Of a stretch of 64,000 nucleotides of DNA, positions 8,223 to 61,815 are shown piece after piece; position 1 is the first letter of the stretch; the number at the start of each line of letters is the position of its first letter. Source of the stretch: Anadara kagoshimensis (lineage: Eukaryota > Mollusca > Bivalvia > Arcoida > Arcidae). The stretch is taken from positions 49,676,634 through 49,740,633 of the forward strand of contig CM037861.1 of the NCBI GenBank assembly GCA_021292105.1, in the 5' to 3' direction. Position numbers and translations under genes: made by a program. Under the pieces are notes generated by a model. The model searched no databases, was not told the origin of the DNA, and worked only from the letters and a program-made list of their open reading frames with translations.

Positions 8223-9178
8223 TTAATTTGCCGGCAAACACAAATTTTCTGACGTTAACATACAATTCGGATGAGGGTTGCATTCCGCTACTGAGAGTAT
8301 CTTACATTGTCTACATATTACTGTATTCAGAAAACACGAATTGGCTAAACAATTCTCTAATTTCATTTGAATGGTTGAGTTTGTATTTGTTATGGCGACA
8401 GTGACGGCATCCTCGATGGCTTTGTTACAGTCTGTATTACATTTATCTATAGCGGCTTGTGCGGTAATATTATGTTGTGCAAGTGCAGCTGAAACCGCAT
8501 TGGCTATAGCTTCTTCGCAAGCTTTCGTGGCGTTGTTAATGGCAACCGGTATATTATCCTGACAAGCTTTAAGCTCTCTCTGTGCTTCCAAATGAGCCAT
8601 TCGCAATGCATTATGTTTACTAATTTGAACGTCTGCTTCGACTTTTCTAATGCGATCTTGACATATATTATTTTCATACACCAGGATTCCGCGTAGAAGC
8701 AGTCCTAAAAAGTAGATTAATAACAATAAATAAATATTGATGCAACAGTTTTCGTTTAAAGTACATGTACATCAGTGAGACCGAACTGGTTCTGATTTTT
8801 ATTGAAACACGTGAAATTCTAAGAGAAAATTTTTAGCCATGTGCTCAGAGAATACAAGAGATATTCATAATTTTTATTTATTTTTTACTTTTTCATTTGC
8901 ATAAGTTTACGCATATAAATCCACGAATCACACAATTAATACAATTTTATTTTATATATGTTGTTAGCATGTCATAAGAAATGGAAACAAAATGTATAAT
9001 GAAAATCAAAATTATTATTTAAAATGTTATACGGCGGACAACAATATGTATCGAGCACTTACCGGATGATAACATATAACTCAGAAATTGTCCAGAGTTG
9101 TAATGGGAGCAAACGGCTAAACATAACACTATCAAAACGAGTTTTTTCAGTTCCATGAAGGAGGAACAAAAATGGTAT
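8223..9178 (-). CDS. Two-exon gene for a small secreted protein of unknown function
   Basis: Exon 1 starts at ATG 9156-9154 and codes 31 residues ending at 9063, followed by a consensus GTAAGT donor (9062-9057). The intron is 358 bp and ends TACTTTTTAG at 8705. Exon 2 (8704-8223) joins in phase (G+GA, Gly) and ends at a stop, giving about 191 residues. The N-terminus MELKKLVLIVLCLAVC is a typical signal peptide, so the product is probably secreted. The middle is Ala-rich and likely helical or coiled-coil, with Cys every 15-30 residues and N-x-T/S sites. The C-terminus is denser in Cys (C-x4-C-x7-C-x2-C-x8-C-x5-C-x8-C). A TTTCTTTTACAG acceptor at about 9190-9179 suggests an upstream 5' UTR exon. 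If exon 2 is read alone from an in-frame TTG at 8726, the first seven residues come from the intron. I recognise no family; molluscan matrix, mucus or immune secreted proteins are guesses. Confidence 0.75.
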
Positions 9179-9405
9179 CTGTAAAAGAAACACAAAAATG
9201 TATCAACGTTTTTACATTATGAAATAGGGAAACCATCCTTAGTAGGAATATTTTAATGAATTAAAAAGGTTTTGAAAAATGTTAGATATCCTAGAACCAA
9301 GGCTCAGAATGTTATTTTAATACCTTACAAGGGGATGTCGAACTAGTCCGTTACCATAACAATCTTCAATACATTGAAAAACATTTCATAGTATTACATA
9401 TATTA
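9179..9405. other. Upstream flank of the secreted-protein gene
   Basis: Contains the presumed intron upstream of the coding exon on the minus strand. No clear TATA box or second exon could be picked out. Confidence 0.4.
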
Positions 9406-9783
9406 TCAGTTTTTAATTTTACAGCACTGGACGGCCGTTACAGAAGGCAATTCCTTATCAGTAGAAGGACCAAAATTGTTTATAAGATGTTGAAAAAATA
9501 CCCAAAGGACCAAAATATATTTGATTGAATTAAGCTAAGGAAATACTTTGCATGAAGGAGTATACCACAGTTAATGAGGAATTTTACATTTTAACTAGCA
9601 GCAAATTTAGACAATAGTGTGTTTCTGACAATAATACAGATTTATTGTCTACTGAGTTTGTAATATCTTTGAGGCACCAGCCACCAGCAGAGATACCGGC
9701 TCAGAAGTTTAAATTACGTATTATACCATTTTTAATTTTACAGCACTAGATGGCCGTTTCGGAACACAATTCCTCGAGGAAAT
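9406..9783 (-). mobile_element. Degenerate hammerhead-type element with two motif copies
   Basis: Two copies of the hammerhead-bearing segment, starting at 9423 and 9742 (319 bp apart), flank a body shared with 19740-20131 (GATGTTGAAAA, CTTTGCATGA, CACCAGCCACCAGCAGAGAT). The motif at 9423 has a broken core (CTGATAAG and CTGTAAC in place of CTGATGAG and CCGAAAC on the minus strand). The one at 9742 keeps GAAAC and GGCC but has lost CTGATGA. Neither should cleave. Confidence 0.75.
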
Positions 9784-10619: not shown

Positions 10620-10647
10620 AACACTACTGAAACGGCCGTTTAGTGCT
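10620..10647 (+). other. Hammerhead remnant lacking stem II
   Basis: The plus strand reads ACACTACTGAAACGGCCGTT then TAGTGCT. Compared with intact copies, everything between CTGA and AAC, including stem II, is deleted. It is followed by the family's A/T-rich leader (AAATTAAAAAATACCTGATA). Confidence 0.6.
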
Positions 10648-10659
10648 GAAAAATTAAAA

Positions 10660-11770
10660 AATACCTGATATAATATGTAATTTGAAATTAATTCTTGCTT
10701 GAAAGAAATATAAAGGTGTAAAATATGTGTTCATATCTTAACTCTAAAAATATTAACATGTTTGGGCGGCATCGTGACCTCTAACCGACAAAAAATAAGA
10801 TAAAATAGCGTCTGAAAATATTTTTCAGTAATTAATCTTGTTTAATTTTAAAGGCCATGTATAGAATATAAATAGCAGTCAATCGAGTTAATCTATGAAA
10901 AATTCAATCTTTTTGGCAAATTGCAAAGTTAGGAAGGTTTTTTGAAATATATCTTAAGATTAAGTTTTGATATTTTTCTGAAATTGGTGATGGTAAAAGT
11001 GTTATTGTCTTAGACTTCAAGGGACAAAAATGATTTAAAACAAAAATTGTTAAGTTAAGTTTTAGAGAAAATAAATGTTTAAGGGAACTGTGTTTTGGGT
11101 ATTTTAAATAGAGATTGACAGATAACTAGCCGGACTAACATCTCTCACCTCTGTATGGTCAGTCTCTAAATAATTAGTCCATGCTATAGTTTTAATAGGT
11201 TCTATATTTCAAAATTTAAATGTTTTTTTTCACACAATTTATTTCTATCAAGATACGTTTTCTCAATTTTTGTAATTATCCACTAAAATTTGCTTTAATA
11301 AAGGACATATTACTAATGTTCCGTCTTGATGAGTGTTTTAATCACAAAGATATCCACACAGTCTTGACAATATTAAGATACACCATAAGAATTAGTTCTA
11401 TGACACAAGGATGGACATTTACAATTTGACGGGAAAACATAGTTTTATATTACAAGTCATGTTTATTGTTAGGATTTAAACATTTAAATGAATAATGGCT
11501 TTGAACACAAATTAAACTCGCAATTTAAAGGTATGTGGAGAATAAATACATGTGAAAAGTTAAGGTTCAAAAATACCCATTTCTCCACTCGAGTCACATT
11601 AATATACTTATTCTAATTTCAAATAATAACCTTAAAATAACACAAAAGTCTAAATTTAAAATATTTATTTAATTTAATCATTAGTTTTTTTTTATATTTT
11701 CAACAAACATAACTGACCATGTATTTTGAATTTGTAAACAGAATCTGTGTTATTTTATCTTGAGGCCATA
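10660..11770. other. No feature recognised
   Basis: AT-rich DNA. A 69-codon frame at 11220-11429 has low-complexity, biased composition and no splice context, so it is not called. Confidence 0.5.
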
Positions 11771-13731: not shown

Positions 13732-14310
13732 TAAAGGCCACCGGTCACCAAATTTAACAATTTTGTATTTGCAATCCTATGGATAGAGCTGTCAATATTG
13801 ATGTGTCTGACGGTATAGCACACCAACATTCACCTGTCATATACTAAATACTTATTTGAACGATTTGTTAAAACTCGATAATTTCCGACACCGCTCGTAA
13901 TTTTCCGGCGACTAAATTGATGACGTACATGGTGTTAGGCTGATGAGGAAAGACATATCACCTATATATGTATCCATATGTAACATTTAGGTGTGTGTGA
14001 CATTTTGAAGGGTTTTAAAGTTTCAAGTCAAATGATATGTTTTGTGAAGTTTGGATATGAAAATACCACAATGAAAGATAAACATTTTTTTCACAAATTT
14101 CAGAACGAATTAAAGACACACTTACACATGTAATTCATGCAGCTTTCTAATTGTTTTTGAAGAAGATATAACAAATATTTGATAAAAAATAGTACGCACT
14201 GAAATGATTTTTAATTTTAAAATAGGACAATTTATAAAACAAATATAAAATTGAATCAATTGAGGTCAATTGGTTATAATGCTGTACTAGAGAGATGAAA
14301 AATGTTTAAA
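13732..14310 (-). mobile_element. Inverted copy E' of the 2.15-kb TIR element, left part
   Basis: Starts TTAAAGGCCACCGGTCACC and is the reverse complement of about 17940-18353, then of 16960-17060 (shared GCTGTACTAGAGAGA). At about 14310 homology breaks off where the Penelope-like copy begins. The other part of E' resumes after 18354. The simplest reading is that E' was split by a 4-kb insertion. Confidence 0.7.
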
Positions 14311-16201
14311 CTGTCATAATTTTACTCTAACTACCTGCTCTTGCTCGTCTTTTCCCTATATCTATGTGATAACTGTTGATCTCAATATAATCGAGAACAC
14401 TAAATTAAGATCTTTACTCTCAAAAGGTCCTAAATATAGAGAAGTTCATCCTTTTACTTGGGGACAGATTTTCAGACTTGTCATGGATTCTGTTAAAGAG
14501 TACGCCAGACGTTGGGCTAAATTAGAAGATGTTGAGCTTGATACCTTATCCGACAGGATAAAGGTTGTGAGATCTTTCGTTAAAACTAGGATTGTCAAAC
14601 TTAAAGGGTCTATGAGTACTAAGCCGTCTTCAGTACTCAAGGATCCAGAAATCAAGGCAATTCTAACAGACATACACAACAAATATGTTGTTGTCCCAGC
14701 TGATAAGGCTTACAACAACAACGTTTGTAAGAGATTCTACCTTGAGCTTTGTTTAGATATACTAGAACTAATTTTACCAAAGATGAAGTTCTTTCCAACC
14801 ATAGGGGAGTTCTCGAGTCTTTCGGTATCAATCTTAAAGAGGAAGATCTTGATCTTCCTTACTTGTACATGTAATGGATTTCTAAACTCCATAAAAATCT
14901 ATACAAGGAAAGATATATAGCAGGCTCATCTAAATGTACTACGAAATCATTATCGGTAACTCTAACACAAATTTTTACTATCGTCAAATATGGTCTTCAG
15001 TCTTATTCAGAAAAAGTATATTCTACATCTGGAATCAACCAAATGTGGATTCTCAAAAATTCTAAAGAATTACTTGAACATCTTGCTTCTTATACTTTAT
15101 CTCATGTAAAAAGTATTAAAAACATTTGATTTTTCTACACTATGCACCACTATCCCTCGTTCTAAATAGAAAGAACGTCTTAAAGAAATTATTCACTTGT
15201 CTTTCTTTTACAAAAAACGGTAAGCCAAGATACAAATATCTGGTGTTGAACAGGAATTCTGGTTATTTTGTAAAATCAGCATACGGATTCCAAACAAAAA
15301 TATACTGAAGATACCATCAACAAAATGTTAGAGATTTTGATAGATAACATATTTGTTGTGTTTGGTAATATAGTTTTTCAGCAAACAATCGGTATACCAA
15401 TGGGTACAAACTGTGCGCCATTGCTTGCTGATTTGTTTCTTTATTTTTATGAAGCAGAATTTATGCAGAACCTTGTTAAATCTGGAGAGAAGACTGTCGC
15501 CAAATCATTTAACTCAACATACAGATATATATATGACGTTCTGTCTCTTAACAATCCTAAATTTGGAGACTATGTAAATGTCATCTATCCTAGTGAGCTT
15601 GAAATAAAAGACACGACTGATTCCTCAAGTTCTGCTTCATATTTAGACTAATACCTGAATTATGACGCACACGAAAGGCTACATTTGAAACTTTATGACA
15701 AACGTGATGCCATCAATTTTTCTTTTGTCAACTTTCTTTTTTTATGCAGCAATATACCAGCTGCTCCTGCTTATGGTGTATTTGTTTCCCAATTAATACG
15801 CTATACAAGAGCTTGTTCCCACTACAAGGACTTTGTACAACTAAGTAAGCTGCTTGCAAATAAATTGTTGACTCAGGGATATTGCAAGCCTAGGCGTGTC
15901 AAGGCACTCAAAAAGTTTTATGGCCGTCATCACATTATTGTTGATAAGTTTGATGTCTTTGTGTCCAGGATTGCCCTGGATATATTTGGCGTCTCATGAC
16001 GTTCCATGTTCCTTTCATACAATTTTGATTACACACGTGACGGGTGTAGTTAGCTAAACAGGAGCTGTTTACCCTTCCGGAGCACCCGGCCTCACTTCCC
16101 TGGTGGAAGTTCACGTGTCTAACCTGGCTTGTCAGTTCCAAAGTTTTTACTTTGCTTCTGGATTGTGATTCGGACATGGATTAGTATGTTTGTTTTTGAT
16201 T
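14310..16201 (+). mobile_element. Penelope-like retroelement, near-complete RT region plus 3' tail
   Basis: Longest copy of the dominant family here. It contains a broken RT reading frame (14366-15999) followed by the conserved non-coding tail to 16201. The tail can form GGAGCACC- and ACTTCC/GGAAGT-type hairpins. It lies inside the inverted element E' and is followed without a gap by element E. No GIY-YIG endonuclease region is recognisable. Assignment to Penelope-like elements rests on the PADK and IPMGT blocks; a related RT lineage is possible. Confidence 0.75.
14366..15999 (+). pseudogene. Reverse transcriptase of a Penelope-like element (inactive)
   Basis: The RT would copy the element's RNA at the target site. 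The frame is interrupted several times: 14366-14920 (frame 2), about 15118-15165 (frame 3), 15325-15651 and 15685-15999 (frame 1). Visible blocks in order are an N-terminal region ending in VVVPADKAYNNN, typical of Penelope-like RTs; motif A as FDFSTLCTTIP at 15121-15153; IPMGTNCAPLLADLFLYFYE at about 15390-15450; the YxDD block as RYIYDVL near 15523-15543; then ELEIKDTTDSSSSASYLD and the C-terminal LIRYTRACSHYKDF to FYGRHHIIVDKFD region. The YIYD form replaces the first catalytic Asp by Tyr, and frameshifts and stops separate the blocks, so the copy is dead. Confidence 0.8.
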
Positions 16202-19545: not shown

Positions 19546-19739
19546 TTTAATTTTTTAGATTGCTTTCTAAAAATGACTGTACCTACAAGTTTCACAATTC
19601 AACCTCAAAAAACCAGATCTAAGTCGAAGTAAACGTGATAAAAAGAACGTAATATTTCTAAATAAGTTTCACATTAAAAAGAACATACATAACATTTTTA
19701 TACATCAATAATTCAGATTTGCTATAAATTGATTCAATT

Positions 19740-20131
19740 ACATATTATACCAGTTTTAATTTTACAGCACTAGACGGCCGTTTCGGAATACAATTCCTCA
19801 TCAGTAGTGCTTGGACCAAAATTATGAAACCAAAATTATTTTGAAGATGTTGAAAAGCTACCCAAAGGGCGAAAATATATTTTACCAAATAAGCTAAGGA
19901 AATACTTTGCATGAGGGAGTATACCTTAGTTTTTGAGGAATTTCAAATTTTAACTTGCAGGAAATTTAGACAATTATAGTATATTTCTGACAATAATGCG
20001 AAATTATTGCCTACTGAGTTGGTGATATCCTCGGGGCACCAGCCACCAGCAGAGATATCGGCTCAGGGGTTTAAATTACATATTATACCAGTTTTAATTT
20101 TACAGCACTAGACGGCCGTTTCGGAATACAA
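19740..20131 (-). mobile_element. Retrozyme-like unit: two hammerhead motifs 338 nt apart
   Basis: The segment from ACATATTATACCAG through the hammerhead region occurs twice in direct orientation (from about 19740 and about 20076), enclosing a body without coding potential. On the minus strand the upstream motif (20131-20104) is cut off within stem II, while the downstream one (19811-19766) is complete. Predicted cleavage positions 20111/20110 and 19773/19772 would bound a 338-nt RNA. Tandem type I hammerheads spaced by a few hundred nucleotides are known from animal retrozymes, which are thought to depend on Penelope-like RTs; this window is full of copies of such an RT. Confidence 0.75.
19766..19811 (-). 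ncRNA. Hammerhead ribozyme, type I, intact core
   Basis: Read on the minus strand: stem I AGCACTA (19811-19805) pairs with TAGTGCT (19772-19766). CTGATGA lies at 19804-19798. Stem II is GGAAT/ATTCC with loop TGT (19797-19785). GAAAC is at 19784-19780, and the GTC cleavage triplet at 19775-19773. Stem III is minimal, but ACGGCCGT (19781-19774) is self-complementary, so two RNAs could pair there as a dimeric hammerhead. All conserved core positions that I can check are present. Confidence 0.8.
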
Positions 20132-20224
20132 TACTAGACTATTTATAAAGTTTGTTGGAACAAAGGGAATACAGACAAAAAAATGTTTTAATCCGTAAAA
20201 GTAGAACTCTCTTTTAACACTTAC

Positions 20225-20950: not shown

Positions 20951-22875
20951 AAGCAGATAAAGTTATTAAAAATGTTTATTTGATAATCCAATACATTGCA
21001 TCCTTGGTAAACAATATTCTCGAGAATGCTTTTCAATACCGCCAACACAGTTGTGTTGTCATTGAGGCCTTAATATTTCTACATTTCAATTAATACTATT
21101 TTCAAAGATTCTCTTTATCCAAAAATTTCTGTTCCGGGCTATTGTCAAGTGCATGCATTTTATCAAATGACATTGTCAATTCTTAGTGGTAGCAATTATT
21201 TTTTATCATTTAAAATTACAGCTTAAACATATGCATTTGGCATTAGCTAATACGACTAGAAACATAGCAACAAATAAATTAAGCCGTAAAATATAATACT
21301 TTTGGCACTGATGTCAAAATAGTACCCAGTGATACTTTAAATAATTTTAACGGATGACAAGTTTATAACAATCAGTGGTCACAAAACATACACATTTAAA
21401 TCAAACATGATATATACCGAAACAAATCAACAATCATTAATGTATTTTTTAAAAACATTTATTATATTTTTTAAATAAATCTTTTGTTGAACTGTGTTTA
21501 AAGCACAAATGCACTGCACTTTAATAACATTTAAATGATTCCAAGAAATGCACAAATATGATCAGTAATCAAGACCGTCCCCACTGAAAACAAATTTAGA
21601 ATACCCCATATTATTGAATTTAATCAATATTAATTGGTTTTCAATACGAATGTAGAACACAAGTTGTTTTATTCTTTAAGGTACAGGAACTTCATTTTAT
21701 TTTTATTTTTCAATATTAATTTTATGTCGAGAAATGGACTTCGGTATTATTAAATACAGAAACCATATACATTTCACAGCTTTCTTTGCCAACGAGCTTG
21801 TCGGACTGTGATCGCTAAATATTAATATTATAATATTGAATGATATACACATTTTTGTTGACCCAATCACGCATATATATATATTATTTAAATATTTTGT
21901 TCTAGCAAAAAATAAGATATACAACACATCTTCTAATCGATACAGATTTCTGCAAATTCAATACAAACTGTTAAGATTTGACGCAACAATTTAGAAAAAA
22001 TGAGGAATGAAATATACTAGACTTATCTCTCTTTAGCCACAACGGAAATTATTTCTTGATATAATACTCAAAAGGAAACTTAAAGAAGCATAGAACGTTA
22101 GTTTATTTTAAAATGTGGATATTTATAGACGATAACGTTCTGCAAAAAAAATATTGTTTTCTCACCTGAAAAAATGTAAAAAATGAAAAACTGCAAATAT
22201 ATGTTTAAAGTAGCATTTTATGATAACAAAATGAACAGTACTAAAAAGCAGATCTGCACAGTAACCCAGTGGTTTCCATATATATATATATATTTATAAT
22301 TGTATCTTATTTAATTTTTTTTTTGTTTTCAATTGCTTTAAATAGCCATTTTCAAGTACAAACATTTAAGTTTTTTTCTCTTTGTACCAGAAAGTCATTA
22401 TAAAGTCATTACGCGTTATGCATGTCGGGGCTGAAATCGACCGTGAAAACAACTACTGCTCGCATTTCAAATTATTTTATAAAACCCTCGATATGCTACT
22501 ATTATATTTAGTGAAAAGTTGACTGTTCAGAAATGTTAACACTTTTTGCGCAGTTTTGTTTTGAAAAAGATTCTAGGCACATACATGTACAGCTGTATAA
22601 AAATGTTTTGGGTGTTTAAGAATATCGACCGTTAAGTTAAAAAATCAGCATTCAATTGTATGGAAATCAGCTTATATTTAAGACATCGATACCAATATTT
22701 GAAACACAGAAACCTCTTTTAAAATATGGAACGTTTACAAAATCTGACAGTTAATCATACATATTATCTTTCTAAAGGAAATAGAATAGATGATTTGGTA
22801 TTATACTTTCACTCTTACCTGTACCATCTAATACGTACTAGTCAAGGGTCAACTCAAAACTTATGAAGAGAAAAC
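20951..22875. other. No gene recognised
   Basis: AT-rich sequence with a short (TA)n run near 22280 and no convincing frame. The 74-codon minus-strand frame at 21703-21927 has no support beyond length. Confidence 0.5.
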
Positions 22876-23655
22876 CTACCAAGTGACCTGAATTATTGAA
22901 TTGCAAGTTTTCATGATGGACTAAAGTACCAATTGCAATAGAAGCGATAGAGAAAAACAATCGTACGTAATTTACGGAACTCCAGGAACAATGTTCTTCT
23001 GATTATAGAAACCACTACTCTACACACTACATAAATTGGTGACATCATTGATATTATAATCATAGTCAGATTGATTTCCTATTCTTTGCATTGATCTAAT
23101 ATTTATTCATGACTGGCTTTTACTTGGAAATAACATATATAAAATTGCGCAAAAATTGTTTATAACATTGTATCATGTTGCATTACCAGGTCCAAGCTAA
23201 TACATTGTTTAAATTTAAACATAAATCAAAAACTTTTTTGCAGAGTGCCATTGCATTGTTGTTGTGCATGTCATTGCAAATGTCACGGTCTGTTGGCACC
23301 TTATGACTACATCCGTGCACTACTCTGCCATACAATACATTTGCTTCCCTTTTTCATGGATGAAAAAATGGATTGACGATACAATTTATCATAAAGAAAA
23401 AATATATACTAGTATTTCATTCATAGGTCGTTACTTTGTTGTTTGACATTAAGAATACAACATGTAGAAAACGCTAGATACTTTTATCGACTGCTAACAC
23501 AAAAACAGTATTCCGTCATCTGTGCTATTGATCATACAACCAATATATGTTAACACTGAAGACTAAGGGATTATTTAGAAAAGATACCCGAGATAAAAGT
23601 ATTTGATAACACAGCTACACAATAGTGGGACAGTTTTAAATTATAACTAAAAGTG

Positions 23656-23678
23656 TTCATTTCCTCGTCAGTAGTGCT
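23656..23678 (-). other. Hammerhead 5' half (remnant), also at 25944-25964
   Basis: The plus strand reads TTCCTCGTCAGTAGTGCT, the reverse complement of stem I plus CTGACGAG. The GAAAC and cleavage half are absent. It was copied along with the 2.29-kb duplication. Confidence 0.55.
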
Positions 23679-24757
23679 CCGACACACATTGTAGAACAAT
23701 TTTTAAGATGATCAAATTGTTTACCTGAATTTATCTAAGGCATACTGTTAAGCATGTCTTATTTTGGAAGAATTTTAAAATCTGTTTAAAACAGATAATT
23801 ATTTTAAACAATGAACTGGGATATGCTTCTTTGTCTCAACTATCAGTTATCTGCATTGTACCATGTAGCTTTACCTGTTGATAAGTCATTTTTTTCAGTT
23901 GCAAGTTTCCTGCTACATTGAATACGTGGCTTTTTTCTTTTAACACTCAAAACGTACTTTCGGGAAAAGTATAAAAGTACAGAATCATTACTTTTCTTTC
24001 GGGATTTGAAATATTTGAAATGAGAAACAGTTAGCCTGATGAACTCAGAATACACATATATTTTAAACACAACAGTGATAAAAGATACAACAAAATTATT
24101 GAGTTACATTTCTTTGCTAACGCTATTTGTCATTTATAGTTACGGATCTCGTGGATGTTGAACCGAAATTGTACCGAATTGGGAATTCACAAATGTATAT
24201 GTTCTCTTAGGATTCATTAAATATATTTCTGCTGTCAAGTCCATTTCAGAAATTCTATTTGATGTCACAATCGCGTGTAATTAAACCTTTTGTACCCAAC
24301 TCTTAAAATTAAAGACAGAGAAAAAGTACTAAAAACGAGCTAAGACAACGTGACACGACAAATATAGATCAAAACCTATATCATAATGAGGTCTACAATT
24401 TGGCACAGAGTGCCTTTCACCATAGGAGATTAGACGTCCCTGGTATGGCACTTTAAGTACTATTTTCGCAAAGGATCATATCAAATGCAGCTTAAAGATT
24501 TTTAACGCTTTCTGAACACAACCACATAATAAATTGTTTAAACTTTTGACATCACAATAGTATTTCAACTGTTGACATCACAATAGTATTTAAGAAAACA
24601 TCATAGGCAATTACAACTTGTATATGACCTTCAAACGGTGGCAATTTGTCCACCGAAATACTCACGAAAAAATCGTATAAATTTCAAACGGAAATTTGTT
24701 TATCTGATTTTAAAAAGATTTAATTTTTAGGTAACTAATAAACGTCATTTTTTTCAG

Positions 24758-24936
24758 AAGGATCACTAAAGCGTTTTATTTCTACCCATAGTCAAGGTAA
24801 TACGTTTTCCGATGCAGTTAAACACCATCCAGATAAGAACAATTATAAGTCATATTTAATATGCCAGGATTACATAAGAGACAACTTCCAACCAATCGCT
24901 TTATCTGGAGAAGTAATTACATTTTTGCAACTATAA
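24758..24936 (+). CDS. Exon-like frame in the duplicated unit, unknown product
   Basis: A good acceptor (CATTTTTTTCAG, AG at 24756-24757) is followed by 58 open codons in the frame starting GGA at 24760, ending TAA at 24934-24936. A GAA/GTAATT donor-like site at about 24916 could end the exon earlier. The peptide begins SLKRFISTHSQGNTFSDAV and continues with a Tyr-, Lys- and Asp-rich segment containing YKSYLICQDYIRDNF, which looks like real protein rather than translated AT-rich DNA. Another frame opens after TTTATAG at 24140 (TDLVDVEPKLYRIGNSQMY); its only difference between units is GTG/GTA, a silent Val change. No family recognised. Confidence 0.35.
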
Positions 24937-25161
24937 ATTAAACTAACAATTCTTAAATTGTTCATTTAACACGATGTATTTTAGACAGATCAGTAATTAA
25001 AATTCTATTTTATAAATTGCTATCTTGCATGTAAATAGGAATGATTCATATTCGGTAATATTTTTATTCAGTAAAAACCATATTTCAAACTGTATCTGAA
25101 TAACTTTCTCGACATGAGCCAGCGCAAGTACGGACAGACCACAAAATCACAGATGAACGAA

Positions 25162-27446
25162 ACTCTACCAAGTGACCTGAATTATTGAATTGCAAGTTTT
25201 CATGATGGACTAAAGTACCAATTGCAATAGAAGCGATAGAGAAAAACAATCGTAATTTACGGAACTCCAGGAACAATGTTCTTCTGATTATAGAAACCAC
25301 TACTCTACACACTACATAAATTGGTGACATCATTGATATTATAATCATAGTCAGATTGATTTCCTATTCTTTGCATTGATCTAATATTTATTCATGACTG
25401 GCTTTTACTTGGAAATAACATATATAAAATTGCGCAAAAAATTGTTTATAACATTGTATCATGTTGCATTACCAGGTCCAAGCTAATACATTGTTTAAAT
25501 TTAAACATAAATCAAAAACTTTTTTGCAGAGTGCCATTGCATTGTTGTTGTGCATGTCATTGCAAATGTCACGGTCTGTTGGCACCTTATGACTACATCC
25601 GTGCACTACTCTGCCATACAATACATTTGCTTCCCTTTTTCATGGATGAAAAAATGGATTGACGATACAATTTATCATAAAGAAAAAATATATACTAGTA
25701 TTTCATTCATAGGTCGTTACTTTGTTGTTTGACATTAAGAATACAACATGTAGAAAACGCTAGATACTTTTATCGACTGCTAACACAAAAACAGTATTCC
25801 GTCATCTGTGCTATTGATCATGCAACCAATATATGTTAACACTGAAGACTAAGGGATTATTTAGAAAAGATACCCGAGATAAAAGTATTTGATAACACAG
25901 CTACACAATAGTGGGACAGTTTTAAATTATTACTAAAAGTGTTCATTTCCTCGTCAGTAGTGCTCCGACACACATTGTAGAACAATTTTTAAGATGATCA
26001 AATTGTTTACCTGGATTTATCTAAGGCATACTGTTAAGCATGTCTTATTTTGGAAGAATTTTAAAATCTATTTAAAACAGATAATTATTTTAAACAATGA
26101 ACTGGGATATGCTTCTTTGTCTCAACTATCAGTTATCTGCATTGTACCATGTAGCTTTACCTGTTGATAAGTCATTTTTTCAGTTGCAAGTTTCCTGCTA
26201 CATTGAATACGTGGCTTTTTTCTTTTAACACTCAAAACGTACTTTCGGGAAAAGTATAAAAGTACAGAATCATTACTTTTCTTTCGGGATTTGAAATATT
26301 TGAAATGAGAAACAGTTAGCCTGATGAACTCAGAATACACATATATTTTAAAACACAACAGTGATAAAAGATACAACAAAATTATTGAGTTACATTTCTT
26401 TGCTAACGCTATTTGTCATTTATAGTTACGGATCTCGTAGATGTTGAACCGAAATTGTACCGAATTGGGAATTCACAAATGTATATGTTCTCTTAGGATT
26501 CATTAAATATATTTCTGCTGTCAAGTCCATTTCAGAAATTCTATTTGATGTCACAATCGCGTGTAATTAAACCTTTTGTACCCAACTCTTAAAATTAAAG
26601 ACAGAGAAAAAGTACTAAAAACGAGCTAAGACAACGTGACACGACAAATATAGATCAAAACCTATATCATAATGAGGTCTACAATTTGGCACAGAGTGCC
26701 TTTCACCATAGGAGATTAGACGTCCCTGGTATGGCACTTTAAGTACTATTTTCGCAAAGGATCATATCAAATGCAGCTTAAAGATTTTTAACGCTTTCTG
26801 AACACAACCACATAATAAATTGTTTAAACTTTTGACATCACAATAGTATTTCAACTGTTGACATCACAATAGTATTTAAGAAAACATCATAGGCAATTAC
26901 AACTTGTATATGACCTTCAAACGGTGGCAATTTGTCCACCGAAATACTCACGAAAAAATCGTATAAATTTCAAACGGAAATTTGTTTATCTGATTTTAAA
27001 AAGATTTAATTTTTAGGTAACTAATAAACGTCATTTTTTCAGAAGGATCACTAAAGCGTTTTATTTCTACCCATAGTCAAGGTAATACGTTTTCCGATGC
27101 AGTTAAACACCATCCAGATAAGAACAATTATAAGTCATATTTAATATGCCAGGATTACATAAGAGACAACTTCCAACCAATCGCTTTATCTGGAGAAGTA
27201 ATTACATTTTTGCAACTATAAATTAAACTAACAATTCTTAAATTGTTCATTTAACACGATGTATTTTAGACAGATCAGTAATTAAAATTCTATTTTATAA
27301 ATTGCTATCTTGCATGTAAATAGGAATGATTCATATTCGGTAATATTTTTATTCAGTAAAAACCATATTTCAAACTGTATCTGAATAACTTTCTCGACAT
27401 GAGCCAGCGCAAGTACGGACAGACCACAAAATCACAGATGAACGAA
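25162..27446 (+). repeat. 2.29-kb tandem duplication, unit 2
   Basis: Second unit. It starts at CTACCAAGTGACC right after the end of unit 1 and ends at GATGAACGAAA before unique ACGAACTGTAAAC. The junction at 25161/25162 makes a chimeric minus-strand frame (25085-25348) with no independent meaning. Confidence 0.95.
27043..27221 (+). CDS. Second copy of the exon-like frame
   Basis: Same acceptor, frame and stop as 24758-24936, with no difference seen in the coding part. Either duplication is very recent or the segment is conserved. Product unknown. Confidence 0.35.
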
Positions 27447-28255
27447 ATAAAACGAACTGTAAACTACAATAATGATGTTAAATCTTTCATCCTCAGATAA
27501 GAGATAATAATATTAAATACAAATAAAATATTTAACTGTTAATCAGAGCTTTTTTTTAAAATAACAACTAGAAATAAAACATAAACTTAAGTACAATATT
27601 AAGTTTAAAAGATTTTTGACTTATGAGACCAAATAACAATCATCACTAAAAGTCAAATAGAATAAATAAGAAAAAACAATCATATTAATAAAAAAACAAA
27701 TGTTAAAAAAATCATTATTTTAAATGCACAATTTGATTTGTAATGAAACACATTTAGTCATAGGATCTGACAATATAATAAAATATACTTTGCTTCTGGA
27801 TTGTGATTCGTACATGGAACAATATATTTGTTTTTTGTTATTAATAATTAAATGCAATATAGAAAATAGCTGTTCAAAAAGCATAAACGACAATGACAAA
27901 GGCTATAGGAAGCAAACATATTTATAAAACATCAACTTCAAAAAACAAACATCTAATAGAATAACTAACTCCTGACTTTAGATGGCATAGTTATGACAGA
28001 ACCTTTTCACTAGTGTTAGTTTATTTATTTTGCAGGACCTTTACTATCTTACGTATTTAAAAATCAAAATGATGTCTAAATTGTGTTTGTTTGAACAGGA
28101 ATCTGTAAGAGTGTGGTTAATGACTGCGACAAAAATATTCTCAAAACAAGATAAAGATAAATATAAAAGTATTTCATCAGAAGGGTCAAAAGTAGATCCT
28201 TTGGGATAAATATATTTTGACCGTTAAAACTGGGATAAATAAAAAAGTAAGGATA
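27447..28255. other. No gene; short Penelope-like tail scrap
   Basis: Mostly unique AT-rich DNA. At 27786-27838 CTTTGCTTCTGGATTGTGAT followed by TCGTACATGGAA and TTTGTTTTTT is the last 50 bp of the Penelope-like tail, plus strand. Confidence 0.55.
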
Positions 28256-37446: not shown

Positions 37447-37503
37447 TCAGAATGTCACTTCTTAAATATATTATATACATTATCATATCAGTTTTTATTT
37501 TAC

Positions 37504-37549
37504 ATCACTAGACGGCCATTTCGGAATACAATTCCTCATCAGTAGTGCT
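37504..37549 (-). ncRNA. Hammerhead ribozyme motif, one core-adjacent change
   Basis: On the minus strand: stem I AGCACTA/TAGTGAT (one mismatch), CTGATGAG, stem II GGAAT/ATTCC, then GAAAT where the family has GAAAC, and a GTC triplet. Stem III is weakened (TG wobble), so activity is doubtful. Confidence 0.65.
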
Positions 37550-37644
37550 TTGACGTAAATTATGAAACTAAAATATTGTTTTCAAGATGTTGAAAAGATA
37601 CCCAAAATTACCTTTTTATCTGGTAGAACTTTTTATCTGGTTAT

Positions 37645-37955
37645 TAGCTTGTTCCCACTATGGGGACTTTGTACAACGAAGTAGGCTGCTTGCAAAAAAA
37701 ATTGTTGACTAAGGGATATTGCAAGCCTAGGCTTATCAAGGGCCATCAAAAAGTTTTATGGCCATCATCACAGTATTGTTGATAAGTTTGATGTTTCTGT
37801 GTCCAGGATTGCCCTGGATATATTTGACGTCTCATAGTTCCATGTTTCTTTCTCACAGTTTTGATTACACACGTGACGGGCGTAGCTAGCTAAACAGGAG
37901 GTGCTTACCCTGCCGGAGCACCCGGCCTATGGATTAGTATGTTTGTTTTTGCATA
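37645..37955 (+). mobile_element. Penelope-like 3' end with internal tail deletion
   Basis: Starts in the RT C-terminus at AGCTTGTTCCCACTATGGGG and runs through FYG--H and VDKFDVSVSRIALDI to the tail. After GAGCACCCGGCCT it jumps directly to ATGGATTAGTATGTTTG, about 90 bp shorter than other copies. Nested in the hammerhead element. Confidence 0.8.
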
Positions 37956-38155
37956 ATATATTTTACAAAATTTTGCTAACTGTTCATGAGGCAGTATACC
38001 TTAGTTTTTGATGAATTTAAATTTTAACTTGCAGCAAATATGAACAATACTATACATGTGCATGTCTGATATTAATGCACAATTATTGCCTACTGAGTTT
38101 GTGATGTCCTCGGGGAAACATCCACCAGCAGAGATACCGGCTCAGTTGTTTAAAT

Positions 38156-38699
38156 CACATCTGTCATGTATAGATATTATTTCACCACAGGTTGTTGCCA
38201 TTCAAATACTATTCACGTTGTGGGTACTTAAGGTTTATCAGAGATAAACTTATAGTACACGTCTTGTGTCATACCAAGACTCCACAATAAGTCCAGAGTC
38301 CAAAGGCCAGTTTGTTAACAAATCAGCCAAAAGGTCAGACTAAATTTACAAATTCACTCCAATGTCTAGTCTAGGTTTTCATTTATACCAGTAACACGAG
38401 GACTGTCATCCGACTAATATAAAATATTGTTGTAGAATCATTTTGCTATCACATTACCGATAACGCACCTGCGAAACATAAACGTATTAAATTCCTTCTT
38501 ATTTATTCTTATAATTGCTATTTCTATTCCAAATTACATCATAATTCTACATTTAAAAAAAAACTTCTAGGAAAAAAATGCTTGGTTTTTGTATAAACAC
38601 AAACTTATCATATTTTTTAATTTATTCTAATAATTGCTATTTCTATTCCAATTTTCATCACATTTTGTGCATTTGTTTGATTGAGCTGGAATTTACGCC
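38156..38699. other. No gene recognised
   Basis: Contains a duplicated segment TTATTCTTATAATTGCTATT / TTATTCTAATAATTGCTATT about 115 bp apart; nothing else. Confidence 0.45.
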
Positions 38700-48950: not shown

Positions 48951-50095
48951 AAGGTCGAAGGTCAAGGTCATGTCCCAGTTTTTGACCTTTGATAAAAAAT
49001 GCTATTTTTTTAACATTTCTTGTGATAATGGCATAGGATTTTCATTATTTGTAGGTATTGACATGACGATCATTTTGATACATAGATCAGGGTCATGGGT
49101 TCAAAGGTCAAGGTCACAGATGTCCAAGAATACCAAAATAGTTAATTATCTGCAAAACTATGAATTTTTTGTATAGGCATGTATATCAGAATATTGTAGG
49201 TAATGGCACAATGGTCATTTTGATATATGAATAAAGGTCATGGGTTCAAAGGTCAAGGTCACAGATGTAAACAAGTACTGAAATGGTTAATTATCTCAAA
49301 AACTATAAACTTTTTGTATAGGCATGTATATTAGAATATTGTAGGTATTGGCCTAACGATCATTTTGATATATGAATGAAGGTCATAGGTTCAAGGGTCA
49401 AGGTCATAGAATTAAACGAATACTTAAATGGTTAATTATCTCAAAAACTATAACTTTTTTGTATAGGCATGTATATTTGAATATTGTAGATATTGGCCTA
49501 ACGATTATTTTGATATATGAATGAAGGTCATAGGTTCAAAGGTCAAGGTCATAGCTGCGAACGAATATTTAAATGGTTAATTATCTCAAAAACTATAATC
49601 TTTTTGTATAGGCATGTATATTAGAATATTGTAGGCATTTGCACAACGATCATTTTGATATATGAATGAAGTTCATAGGTTTAAAGGTCAAGGTCAAAGA
49701 TGCAAACTAATACTTAAATGGTTAATTATCTCAGAAACTATAAATTTTTTGTATAGGCATGTATATTAGAATATTGTAGGTATTGGCCTAATGATCATTT
49801 TAATATATGAATGAAGGTCATAGGTTCAAAGGTCAAGGTCATAGATGCAAATGAATACTTAAACAGTTAATTATCTCAGAAACTATAAACTTTTTGTATA
49901 GGCATGTATATTGGAATAAGGTATGTATTGGCCTAACGATCATTTTGATATATGAATGAAGGTCATAGGTTCAAAGGTCAAGGTCATAGACGCGAACGAA
50001 TACTGAAATGGTTAATTATCTTAAAAACTATAAACTCTTTGTAAAGGCATGTATATTGGAATATTGTAGGTATTGGCCTAATGCACATTTTTATA
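48951..50095. repeat. 145-bp tandem array, about eight units
   Basis: GGTCATGGGTTCAAAGG-type starts occur at 49091, 49236, 49381, 49526, 49671, 49816 and 49961, a constant 145 bp, with a decayed unit at each end. Each unit holds AAAGGTCAAGGTCA, two adjacent AGGTCA hexamers, and the phrase TTAATTATCTCAAAAACTAT. Confidence 0.95.
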
Positions 50096-50330
50096 TACAA
50101 ATGTTTTAGCTGTTTATAAATAATATATTGTAGCTAGACTTTAAATATGTTATATATAGCATACTTATATAATAATTATTATAATTAATTTGCAAAAATA
50201 CTTGCATATTATTGGCCCTTACTGCTGAAAATTTTGATATTCTCTTTTTTTAATGTCATTGACCATTGAACCTCTGCATAAGATATGTACTCTTCCTCAG
50301 GTGAGCGTTAAGGCCCATGGGCCTCTTGTT

Positions 50331-51009: not shown

Positions 51010-51231
51010 GATACCAGTTTTAATTTTACATCACTAGACGACCGTTTCGGAATATAATTCCTCATCAGTAGTGTTTGGGCCAAAATTATGAAACCAAAAT
51101 TATTTTGAAGATGTTGAAAAGCTACCCAAAGGACCAAAATATATTTTACCAAATTAAGCTAAGAAAATACTTTGCATGAGGAAGTATACCTTAGCTTTTA
51201 AGAAATTTCAAATTTTACCTTGCAGGAAATT
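51010..51231 (-). mobile_element. Hammerhead element, single-motif copy
   Basis: Leader ATACCAGTTTTAATTTTACA, motif, and body to TTGCAGGAAATTT, where it joins GATTCTGTTGATAAAAGTAG of the duplicated unit. On the minus strand it is therefore 5' truncated. Unit 2 has the uninterrupted site at about 53842. Confidence 0.8.
51030..51075 (-). ncRNA. Hammerhead ribozyme, intact core
   Basis: Minus strand: stem I CACTA/TAGTG (5 bp), CTGATGAG, stem II GGAAT/ATTCC with loop TAT, GAAAC, loop GGTC and GTC triplet. The stem II loop differs from the 19766 copy (TAT versus TGT) and stem III is ACGGTCGT. Confidence 0.75.
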
Positions 51232-52094
51232 TGATTCTGTTGATAAAAGTAGAATGTATTGACCATGAAATACTCATTTTTCTTCTCTATGTTGTTTTTA
51301 ACAATAAGTCACAACTTAGAGCATAAAACTTTAAAGCGTATTTAAATGGAATGAACATAGATCGCTATCCCTATTCTAAGTTTTTACAGTATACAATAAA
51401 ACAACATGCTAATCTATGTCCAAATCACAATCCCAAAGGAAAGTAAAAACTTTGAAACTGACACATTAGGTTGTTAAACACGTGAACTTCCACCAGGGAA
51501 GTGAGGCCGGTTGCTCTTGAAAGGTAAGCACTTCTTGTTTAGCCGGCTACAACCGCCACACGTGTAATCAAACCTGAATAAAAAAGAACATAGAACTATA
51601 GGACGTCAAATATATCCAGGGCAATTCTGAAAACAATACTTTGAATACGGCCAATAAGGCAATGAGGACTCAAAACATTATTTCTATATATTAGACGCCC
51701 ATTCAAAGTCGGGAAGGGGTTGAATGTTGAATGCGCTCATAGCCAAGGAAATTGGGTCATTTTATTTATTACGATATAACACCAGTTATAATTTCCAACA
51801 TGTTTCCTTCATACTACACGCACATCTTTTCAGAAAGCAATTAGGTTTTTGTATAATACCGGAATGTTTATATTTATAAATGTTTAGTTTTTTTGTTCTT
51901 CTCACTGCTTTTGCTTTGTTGCGTCAACACTTGCTTTTGATGTATATAAGTATATGTTATTTAAGGCAAGTTTTTGTATTTTGTATTAAAGGTTTAGACT
52001 GCAATGTACATTTTAGGAAGCTGGCGAATTCTGTGCGAACACAAAAATACATGTATGGTTCCTTTTTTGCTGTTAAACTTTCAATTGGTCTGTA
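51232..52094 (+). repeat. Duplicated segment C, copy 1
   Basis: Homologous to 53843-54700 throughout. Contains a minus-strand Penelope-like 3' end (51390-51670) that predates the duplication, because both copies carry it. Confidence 0.85.
51390..51670 (-). mobile_element. Penelope-like 3' end (in segment C, copy 1)
   Basis: Tail AAATCACAATCCCAAAGGAA to CACGTGAACTTCCACCAGGG and RT C-terminal remains. The tail hairpin has GTGCT opposite AGCAA, one pair lost. Confidence 0.8.
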
Positions 52095-52203
52095 CTTTAT
52101 GTAATCGTGATTTATGATCAGACAAATCCAATACAAAATACTAGATCAATGAAACACAACTGCTATGTCTTGTGATAATTATATAAAGTCACAGATGAAC
52201 CAA

Positions 52204-52545
52204 TGTGTTACCTCCAATGTTTGGCTGGCGTTTTAACCGTTTAAATGAATTGGAAATTCCATCGTGTTACCTCGAATGTTTGGCTGGCGTTTAAACCGTT
52301 TAAAATTAATGGGAAATTCCATTGTGTTACCGCCAAGGTTTGGCCGGCGTTTAAACCGTTTAAAATTAATGGGAAATTCCATTGTGTTACCGCCAAGGTT
52401 TGGCTGGCGTTTAAACCGTTTAAAATTAATGGGAAATTCCATCGTGTCACCTCCAATGTTTGGCCGGCGTTTAAACCGTTTAAAATTAATGGGAAATTCC
52501 ATTGTGTTACCGCCAAGGTTTGGCTGGCGTTAAAACCGTTTTTAA
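52204..52545. repeat. 60-bp minisatellite with repeated GGGAAATTCC
   Basis: Six units of GTGTTACCTCCAATGTTTGG, CTGGCGTTTAAACCGTTT, AAAATTAATGGGAAATTCCA. GGGAAATTCC occurs at 52311, 52371, 52431 and 52491 (10 bp each) and as TGGAAATTCC at 52251. It matches the NF-kappaB/Rel consensus GGGRNWYYCC. Because 60 is a multiple of 3, several frames stay open on both strands; these are not genes. Confidence 0.95.
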
Positions 52546-52707
52546 ATTAATAAGATTTTTTTTATCTTATACTTCCCTTTTAGTGCTCTGGGGTCAACAC
52601 GTTTTCAAATTTAAATACAATCGACATCGATTCATCCTAATAAAAATGCGTGCAACAATGTCACGAAAACAGTATTGTGTTGAGTATGTAATAGATACAA
52701 AAACTAT

Positions 52708-60842: not shown

Positions 60843-61544
60843 AAACAACAAAAGAATTGGGAACTATAGCGAACTTGTTATTTTATAACAAGCCAATTTT
60901 TAAGTTTGAATGTTATTTTAACATAGCTAAATGTTATTATCGCTGTATGTTGGAGAGATGTCGACAGTTTAATTGAAATAAAACAGAAAACATTTAAAAG
61001 ATATATTTAGATTTAAATAAAACAGAAAACATTTAACAGTAAGATACTGTTACAATAAAAACATACCAATCCATGTCCAAACCAAAATTGCAAAGCAAAG
61101 TAAAACCTTTGAAGCTTGCGGTTTAGGTAAGACAGTTTATATATATGCCTAAAAGTGTTAGATTTTAATGTTTCCTTTTATTATACATATTTTTGTAATG
61201 ACGTTCCACTAACACAAAATTTTTGCTTTTAGATTTGATAAATAGGAAAAGTGATCGGGTAGCAGAATGTAACAGGTTAAAATATCCATTTATAGTCTAT
61301 AAGTAGAGGATCATATTTATCACATTATAGTTGTAGCTTTTACAATTTTTGCAAAACAAACATTTTTTAAAAACATTTGGTAACTTAAAAATTTTAATAT
61401 GTCTATGACAAATCTAATTTACCAAAAATATACTTGTTTCCCAAATTACAAATCTCGTTCTATAACCAATTTTAATAGGTATGCTTTAAACGTCCTACCA
61501 GTGAATGTAGATTGTGGTCTTTTTGTTATTTATAACATATTATA
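60843..61544. other. AT-rich, with one short Penelope-like tail
   Basis: 61057-61133 holds the last 75 bp of the tail on the minus strand (ACATACCAATCCATGTCCAA to GCGGTTTAGGTAAGAC). A 30-bp segment AATAAAACAGAAAACATTTA occurs twice at 60976-61036. No gene. Confidence 0.55.
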
Positions 61545-61815
61545 CCAGTTTTAATTTTACAGCACTAGATGGTCGTTTCGGAATACAATTCCTCATCAGT
61601 AGTGCTTGAACCAAAATTATAAAACCAAAGATGTTTTCAAGATGTTGAAAAGATTACCAAAGGACCAAAATATATTTTAACAAATTTAGCTTACGAAATA
61701 CTTTGCATGAGGGAGTATACCTTAGTTTTTGACGAATTTTAAATTTTAACTTGCATAAGTATATTCCTGACAATAATACACATTTATTGCCTACTGAGTT
61801 TGTGATATCCTCGTA
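61545..61815 (-). mobile_element. Hammerhead element, single-motif copy
   Basis: Leader TATACCAGTTTTAATTTTAC, motif, body to TTGCCTACTGAGTTTGTGAT and ATCCTCG. About 30 bp inside the body are deleted relative to the copy at 19740. Confidence 0.8.
61561..61606 (-). ncRNA. Hammerhead ribozyme, intact core with AUC triplet
   Basis: Minus strand: stem I AGCACTA/TAGTGCT perfect, CTGATGAG, stem II GGAAT/ATTCC with loop TGT, GAAAC, then GACC and ATC in place of GTC. ATC is a permitted cleavage triplet but stem III is weaker, so slower activity is expected. Confidence 0.75.

Follow-up and report, generated by a model that had tools for sequence, protein, structure and literature searches.

The locus at 19736..20132 on the minus strand of the window (the whole 64-kb stretch of Anadara kagoshimensis DNA analysed here, C5:49676634-49740633, from an assembly of 1,115,223,567 bases in 36 contigs) is likely a 5'-truncated insertion, about 1.17 units long, of a non-autonomous retrozyme that is addressed by a hairpin and was copied by the enzyme of a GIY-YIG Penelope-like element (PLE). 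A 19-pair hairpin with compensatory changes is common to the retrozyme and to the PLE resident in the same window, and copies of both elements usually end at the same position beside it. The first-pass annotation of this DNA had proposed mobilisation by the PLE of the window; a PLE-like fixed 3' end and the hairpin beside the end common to both make this the best reading, and the retrozyme is probably moved in trans by the resident GIY-YIG PLE. The locus itself is a metazoan retrozyme, a kind already known, and one truncated copy of an abundant family. The new part is the start-point hairpin common to retrozyme and PLE, with its matched end position: a full-text literature search, with subscription papers outside its reach, found no report of a hairpin common to retrozymes and PLEs, and a literature search by the letters of the hairpin gave no match. 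The hairpin and the matching end point offer a sequence-level answer, directly testable, to the question of which enzyme moves animal retrozymes.

In the mechanism proposed here, the type I hammerhead would cleave multimeric transcripts to give units of 338 nt, and the PLE enzyme would bind the 19-pair hairpin of the retrozyme RNA. Reverse transcription, primed at nicked, probably AT-rich DNA, would begin 34-41 nt beyond the hammerhead cut, at a point that precedes the hairpin by ~8 nt. It would then run through the cleavage junction toward the 5' end of the RNA and break off at varying positions or only once it had gone round several times. Insertions produced in this way would be dispersed, would share a single fixed 3' end and have scattered 5' ends, and would in some cases form head-to-tail arrays. 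The hairpin would serve as an address tag that keeps the fold of the PLE start-of-copying signal while its letters drift, compensatory mutation restoring the pairs.

Structure of the retrozyme insertion

The unit of the retrozyme is 338 nt long, and unit position 1 is taken as the first base after the predicted cut. On this numbering the insertion is 5'-truncated at unit ~317 and has its 3' end at unit ~37. It contains a complete type I hammerhead (19766..19811, minus strand) with predicted cleavage between 19773 and 19772, which on the minus strand reads AGCACTA-CTGATGA-GGAATTGTATTCC-GAAA-CGGCCGTC^TAGTGCT (^, predicted cut); the catalytic core at 19811-19766 is complete, with CTGATGA, GAAA and GTC all present. 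Beyond the cleavage site a 37-nt tail (19736..19772, minus strand) closes the insertion, and the 3' end of this tail is the putative start of reverse transcription. The hairpin common to retrozyme and PLE lies at 20014..20066 (minus strand); read along the RNA, its first pair follows ~8 nt after the point at which insertions usually have their 3' end.

A hammerhead-bearing segment had been noticed at this locus twice in direct orientation, one copy complete and the other cut in stem II, and this is borne out by a 62-nt direct repeat (19733-19794 and 20071-20132) that is 98% identical at a spacing of 338. The interpretation as tandem hammerheads bounding a 338-nt unit holds for the spacing and fails for the upstream hammerhead, of which only the 3' half (20104..20132, minus strand) is present: because the insertion is truncated at unit ~317, the upstream ribozyme is cut in stem II, so that it begins in loop II and the half with CTGATGA was lost. 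A transcript of the locus should accordingly undergo at most one cis cut and yield no 338-nt monomer. Any circle with a 20110-19773 junction would have to derive from longer arrays elsewhere.

The Rfam model Hammerhead_1 matches 19810-19767 on the minus strand at 28.1 bits (E 1.1e-4 in the 701 nt searched), and since this is under the gathering score of 34, a scan of the 64-kb window at Rfam gathering thresholds reports no hammerhead. When the 61-nt hammerhead core is folded freely, stems I and II form and the short stem III is absent from the minimum-energy structure. The body of the unit was correctly described as non-coding: the longest stop-to-stop frame on the circular 338-nt unit is 65 aa, the G+C content is 35.5%, and the fold of the whole unit is unremarkable (z -0.23).

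Insertion ends

The 338-nt unit was aligned to 40 loci (L010-L049) fetched at exact hammerhead cores on C1, these being the first 40 of the 60 exact-core clusters listed there; since an exact core was the criterion of choice, their intact hammerheads and their extension across the cut site are effects of the selection. Of 54 copies from 37 loci, 44 have the 3' end of the insertion within unit 34-41. This count leaves out the copies of the window and the duplicate loci L018, L041 and L042, and on the assumption of independent copies the probability of such a concentration in an 8-nt slot by chance is ~6e-62. With the duplicates included, 46 of 57 copies end at unit 34-41, seven at 14-29 and four elsewhere. 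The typical 3' end reads ...GGTATAATATGTAA(TT) and is followed by unrelated DNA. The three pairs L016/L018, L037/L041 and L039/L042 on C1 are apparently the same insertion together with its flanks, which indicates near-duplicate stretches in the assembly or the genome.

The 5' ends, by comparison, are scattered from unit 1 to unit 318, and the median insert is 254.5 nt. Among 40 independent insertions (without those of the window, L018 and L041, and without copies that are less than 86% identical or end outside unit 30-45), ten are longer than one unit and 30 are shorter. A fixed start with scattered 5' truncation looks like the product of target-primed copying, and the combination would fit internal initiation by a PLE enzyme, as in the PLE PAc, which is reported to start internally, to leave a tail of 30-40 bp and to prefer ATT (PMC11167929). 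In metazoan retrozymes target-site duplications, where they occur, exceed 4 bp. One clear target-site duplication (L012, 33 nt with one mismatch) was found here in the 40 independent insertions by a search with a slack of only 6 nt; five further insertions have flank matches of 7-8 nt, which may be due to chance.

Template of reverse transcription

Any insertion that has the fixed 3' end and exceeds ~37 nt extends over the ribozyme junction, which implies a template that was closed or uncut at that point; how frequent shorter insertions are is not readable from the 40 loci, since the core used to choose them spans the cut. The hammerhead is situated just upstream of the putative start point, and for this reason a cut linear monomer would give only a dead-end insertion of ~37 nt, and a closed circle or an uncut multimer a transmissible one. 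Extended to animal retrozymes in general, this suggests PLE parasites that use the hairpin as an RNA address tag and the ribozyme as a gate selecting circular templates, a proposal for which we judge the chances to be about even.

That the template is instead an uncut linear multimer from genomic arrays, with the hammerhead irrelevant to mobility, is a tentative alternative to which we give rather less than even chances. PAc is reported to dispense with its own hammerhead in vitro, and its hammerhead mutants to insert normally there (PMC11167929). The genomic counts, too, are consistent with uncut templates: exact matches fall from 3,489 to 3,060 when the pattern is extended by 3 nt up to the cut and to 2,684 when it is extended by 3 nt across it, and these equal drops of 12.3% mean that cleaved linear RNA has left no visible excess of insertion 5' ends at the cut site, hence no footprint of cleaved linear templates. 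Finally, an array without a ribozyme, derived from the PLE, exists at L103 (described below).

Against an uncut multimer stand the arrays themselves, in which tandem units of the retrozyme are 338-339 nt long. In the four arrays L010, L002, L006 and L007, each with four complete units, the 16 units diverge by 0.70% within arrays and 2.48% between them, and array-specific variants occur either in all units of an array (15 variants) or in one unit (21), never in some. A single unit copied over and over, for instance from a circle, accounts for this pattern better than does the transcript of an array that was already old and diverged, although gene conversion could produce a similar picture. Circles have also been found in cells for the retrozymes of mussel, with linear RNA making up under 5% to 25%, and of coral, in which about half is linear (PMC7229834). 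In addition, the ribozyme looks maintained, since in 23 copies that were not chosen by core (copies having an exact core or at least 97% identity being left out) divergence is 8.8-9.4% in the hammerhead core, stem I and tail, 11.9% in stem II and 18.1% in stem III, against 16.3% in the body.

Sites matching the tail were also inspected, 24 of the first 100 listed having no GTC upstream and 20 of these 24 being fetched. One, L087 (C1:4476834-4476938), is a tail-only insertion of ~35 nt (unit 1-35) in an apparent PLE 3' end, and at its 5' side it begins no more than ~2 nt from the point where the ribozyme would cut. It was rejected as a footprint of cleaved RNA, being the sole one of the 20 that is cut off there, at a position where the equal 12.3% drops reveal no excess. 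Another of the GTC-less sites, L045, which is one of the four beyond the 20 fetched, likewise starts at unit 1.

The Penelope-like element of the window

The candidate mobiliser is represented in the window by fragments, among them a broken copy (14291..16201, plus strand; 3' end ...GTTTGTTTTTGATT), whose long-frame relatives carry GIY-YIG and reverse transcriptase domains. In the 1067-aa ORF of one such relative, L060, Pfam places GIY-YIG at 203-292 (E 1.7e-4; 22.2 bits, under the curated cut-off of 22.6) and RVT_1 at 814-917 (E 2e-4; 21.6 bits, under the curated cut-off of 29.6). Head-to-tail copies (pseudo-LTRs) are common: of the 42 matches to the PLE 5' part, 20 places were fetched, and 19 of them run from the PLE 3' end into the hairpin, the junction reading ...GTTTGTTTTTGATTA-TTACTACTGGGTCGGTGTCTCTGCTGGTGG...; there is no such reading in L080, L060 and L061. 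It is from the GIY-YIG and reverse transcriptase architecture and the head-to-tail layout, as read from the DNA, that this abundant element of the window is called Penelope-like. A first look found 18,980 candidate places for it in the genome, all 150 of those scored match, and some have long open frames.

No hammerhead, of the minimal kind known from PLE pseudo-LTRs, was found in this PLE by pattern in L060-L062 or by Rfam up to E 10 in 324 nt of L064, though minimal variants without stem III could escape both searches. At L103 (C2:10909060-10909460), tandem units of ~108 nt consist of the last ~40 nt of the PLE plus the hairpin and have no hammerhead, from which it follows that tandem arrays do not require one.

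A hairpin common to retrozyme and PLE

When the hairpin of the window retrozyme and that of a PLE (L064) are folded separately, 19 pairs appear in both minimum-energy folds; the PLE hairpin has two pairs beyond the 19 (z -2.96). RNAalifold returns the same 19 pairs for an alignment of 18 retrozyme and 9 PLE rows, in which 97.3% of the cells are paired, against 41-48% when the partners are slid. Hairpin matches that span fewer than 46 query positions or run off the locus were excluded from the hairpin set, and alignment A2 is without two of the 11 distinct PLE rows, namely L060, with a 5' end internal to the hairpin, and L061, in which the PLE part begins at ~column 5. Both are long-frame copies; the 5' end of L060 (at 1997) lies at ~column 18 and that of L061 just before the hairpin, and reverse transcription may stop there.

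Between the retrozyme and PLE consensus rows 20 of 64 positions differ, seven of them in stems, and 19 of 19 pairs are kept. Three pairs are changed on both sides (12-58, 17-50 and 33-38), two from A-U to G-C and one from C-G to A-U, and one stem pair is altered by a single change, from A-U to G-U. With 20 changes placed at random, all pairs survive in 2 of 200,000 trials, and with seven changes confined to stems, in 27 of 200,000. These three compensatory pairs are a natural substrate for mapping the template choice of the PLE enzyme.

The mixed alignment exceeds all of 500 shuffles in cells paired, in cells changed on both sides and in covariation score (0/500 each), measures that are the more open ones to relatedness; it does not exceed them in pairs changed on both sides (3; mean of shuffles, 3.5) or in further pair types (13; mean, 15.1). 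The double changes amount to few events, because the hairpin was compared in only two lineages. A covariance model, R1, which was built from 12 PLE hairpins only and scores letters as well as pairs, was searched against the window and 41 loci (272,395 bases) and gave 18 matches up to E 1, all of them retrozyme hairpins, at E 2e-11 to 6e-7. In one older retrozyme hairpin, at 38090-38153, another fold has the minimum energy (-18.3 kcal/mol, versus -16.0 kcal/mol for the shared fold), and shorter or 5'-truncated pieces of the hairpin fold differently. In the 23 copies not chosen by core, the hairpin is not conserved beyond its surroundings, with a divergence of 16.5% versus 16.3% for the body. 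A search of viral_contigs for the hairpin returned 0 matches. Retrozyme-like repeats of bivalves have a similar hairpin.

The position of the hairpin relative to the insertion end also agrees between the two elements. In hairpin-alignment columns, where column 9 is the first hairpin pair, 61 of 88 distinct matches to the PLE 3' part end at columns 0-7, with the mode at column 3; the 88 include four that are 5' parts or retrozymes and another two that run to a locus edge. The retrozyme mode is column 1, so that the two modes lie within ~2 nt of each other relative to the hairpin.

It is unlikely that another mobiliser, either a different PLE family or a LINE, moves the retrozyme and that the hairpin is a mere trace of retrozyme descent from a PLE. 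One PLE family was examined in this genome, which leaves room for such a mobiliser; a relic, however, would need neither end modes at the same hairpin-relative position nor pairing kept between the retrozyme and PLE consensus, and the PLE that was examined is very abundant and has some long open frames. Still less probable, to a degree that makes it a poor account of the hairpin, is a likeness due to coding, in which the PLE reads GVSAGGIFPEDTISPV across the hairpin and the retrozyme is a decayed copy (DISAGGWCPEDITNSV). The same frame is indeed open through the hairpin in both elements, but of 13 in-frame differences six are at second and four at third positions, which is not codon-like, all the base pairs are kept, and the 338-nt unit is without a long frame. 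Use of the hairpin by the resident PLE, as proposed above, would also help to explain why retrozymes occur in tandem arrays.

Distribution of the retrozyme in the window and the genome

The pattern CTGANGA-N5..30-GAAA occurs nine times in the window, against 2.7 expected. Four of the nine matches, all on the minus strand, share the stem II of the locus save for one loop letter (19781-19804, 37519-37542, 51045-51068 and 61576-61599). Apart from the locus itself, the last three belong to related retrozyme copies at 37476..37606 (88.6% identity), 51011..51232 (93.7%) and 61532..61813 (85.6%), each on the minus strand. Also on the minus strand are a related copy at 37955..38160, whose hairpin (the one at 38090-38153) shares the top score given by the PLE model, and an older copy at 9393..9775 (82.6%) with its hairpin at 9649-9712; a short fragment at 10629..10686 on the plus strand has a hammerhead without stem II.

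In the whole assembly, the 37-nt core is found 12,608 times with up to three mismatches (6,345 and 6,263 by strand), and its reversed control is found 0 times. This literal pattern gave a usable count where an Rfam family search of the genome was too blunt for a ribozyme so short: that search returned one weak match and was also positive in 11 of 14 control genomes, and was set aside. With so many cores, a fixed 3' end and scattered 5' ends, the suggestion in the first-pass annotation that this animal harbours a retrozyme family is supported. Unequal crossing-over of an ordinary satellite that has a hammerhead by chance might produce arrays of several units and is hardly credible for dispersed insertions of which 30 of 40 are under one unit, with one end fixed beside unrelated flanks and the other scattered, and for near-identical cores in such numbers, alike on both strands.

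Relation to known retrozymes and PLEs

As far as metazoan non-LTR retrozymes are described in the parts of PMC7229834 drawn on here, the family resembles them in its type I hammerhead, its small, low-GC unit without a long frame, its tandem copies and its thousands of copies per genome. The unit in tandem (338-339 nt, within the ~170-400 nt of metazoan retrozymes), the G+C content below 50% and the dispersed high copy number all agree with that class. Retrozyme repeats are reported to be ~350-390 bp long in Mytilus galloprovincialis and 220-245 bp in Acropora millepora (Cervera and de la Pena 2020, PMC7229834). Both circular and linear RNAs of metazoan retrozymes have been found, and it was proposed that PLEs mobilise them (PMC7229834); this is considered likely because the two kinds of element co-occur and are alike in their type I hammerheads and tandem copies (PMC7229834, PMC7761336). 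Whereas these three points are the grounds for the link as presented in PMC7229834, the family described here differs from the metazoan retrozymes of the same report in its mapped fixed 3' end and in the hairpin that it has in common with a resident PLE, and is known from DNA alone.

The closest parallel among PLEs is PAc of Anolis (Frangieh et al. 2024, PMC11167929), for which internal initiation at a stem-loop, a tail of 30-40 nt and tandem copies are described. Unlike PAc, the retrozyme encodes no protein. The PLE of the window differs from PAc too, as the latter is characterised in PMC11167929: in PAc the start lies within an AC-rich stem-loop and the endonuclease is C-terminal, whereas copies of the PLE here end, at the mode, ~6 nt before the hairpin, its GIY-YIG domain is N-terminal and no hammerhead was found in it. 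The LTR retrozymes of plants, as outlined in PMC7229834 and PMC7761336, are likewise non-autonomous and hammerhead-bearing, and their probable mover is an autonomous element with the same end signals; they differ in having type III hammerheads, LTRs, a PBS and a PPT, with Ty3-Gypsy elements as the likely movers (PMC7229834, PMC7761336).

Other features of the window and assembly

Five frames of the window were searched with Pfam, and nothing scored over the cut-offs. A 182-aa frame at 8223-8771 on the minus strand, for which Pfam matches are sub-threshold only, has several cysteines and, close to the start, a run of hydrophobic residues. Tandem repeats are present at 49049-50097 (145 nt, 7.2 copies), 52200-52551 (60 nt, 5.9 copies) and 1-330 (36/71 nt), and an apparently recent tandem duplication of 2.29 kb, with copies 99.3% identical, occupies 22870-27447. 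Elsewhere in the assembly, a homeodomain search located a homeodomain cluster, which suggests an animal genome, on C11.
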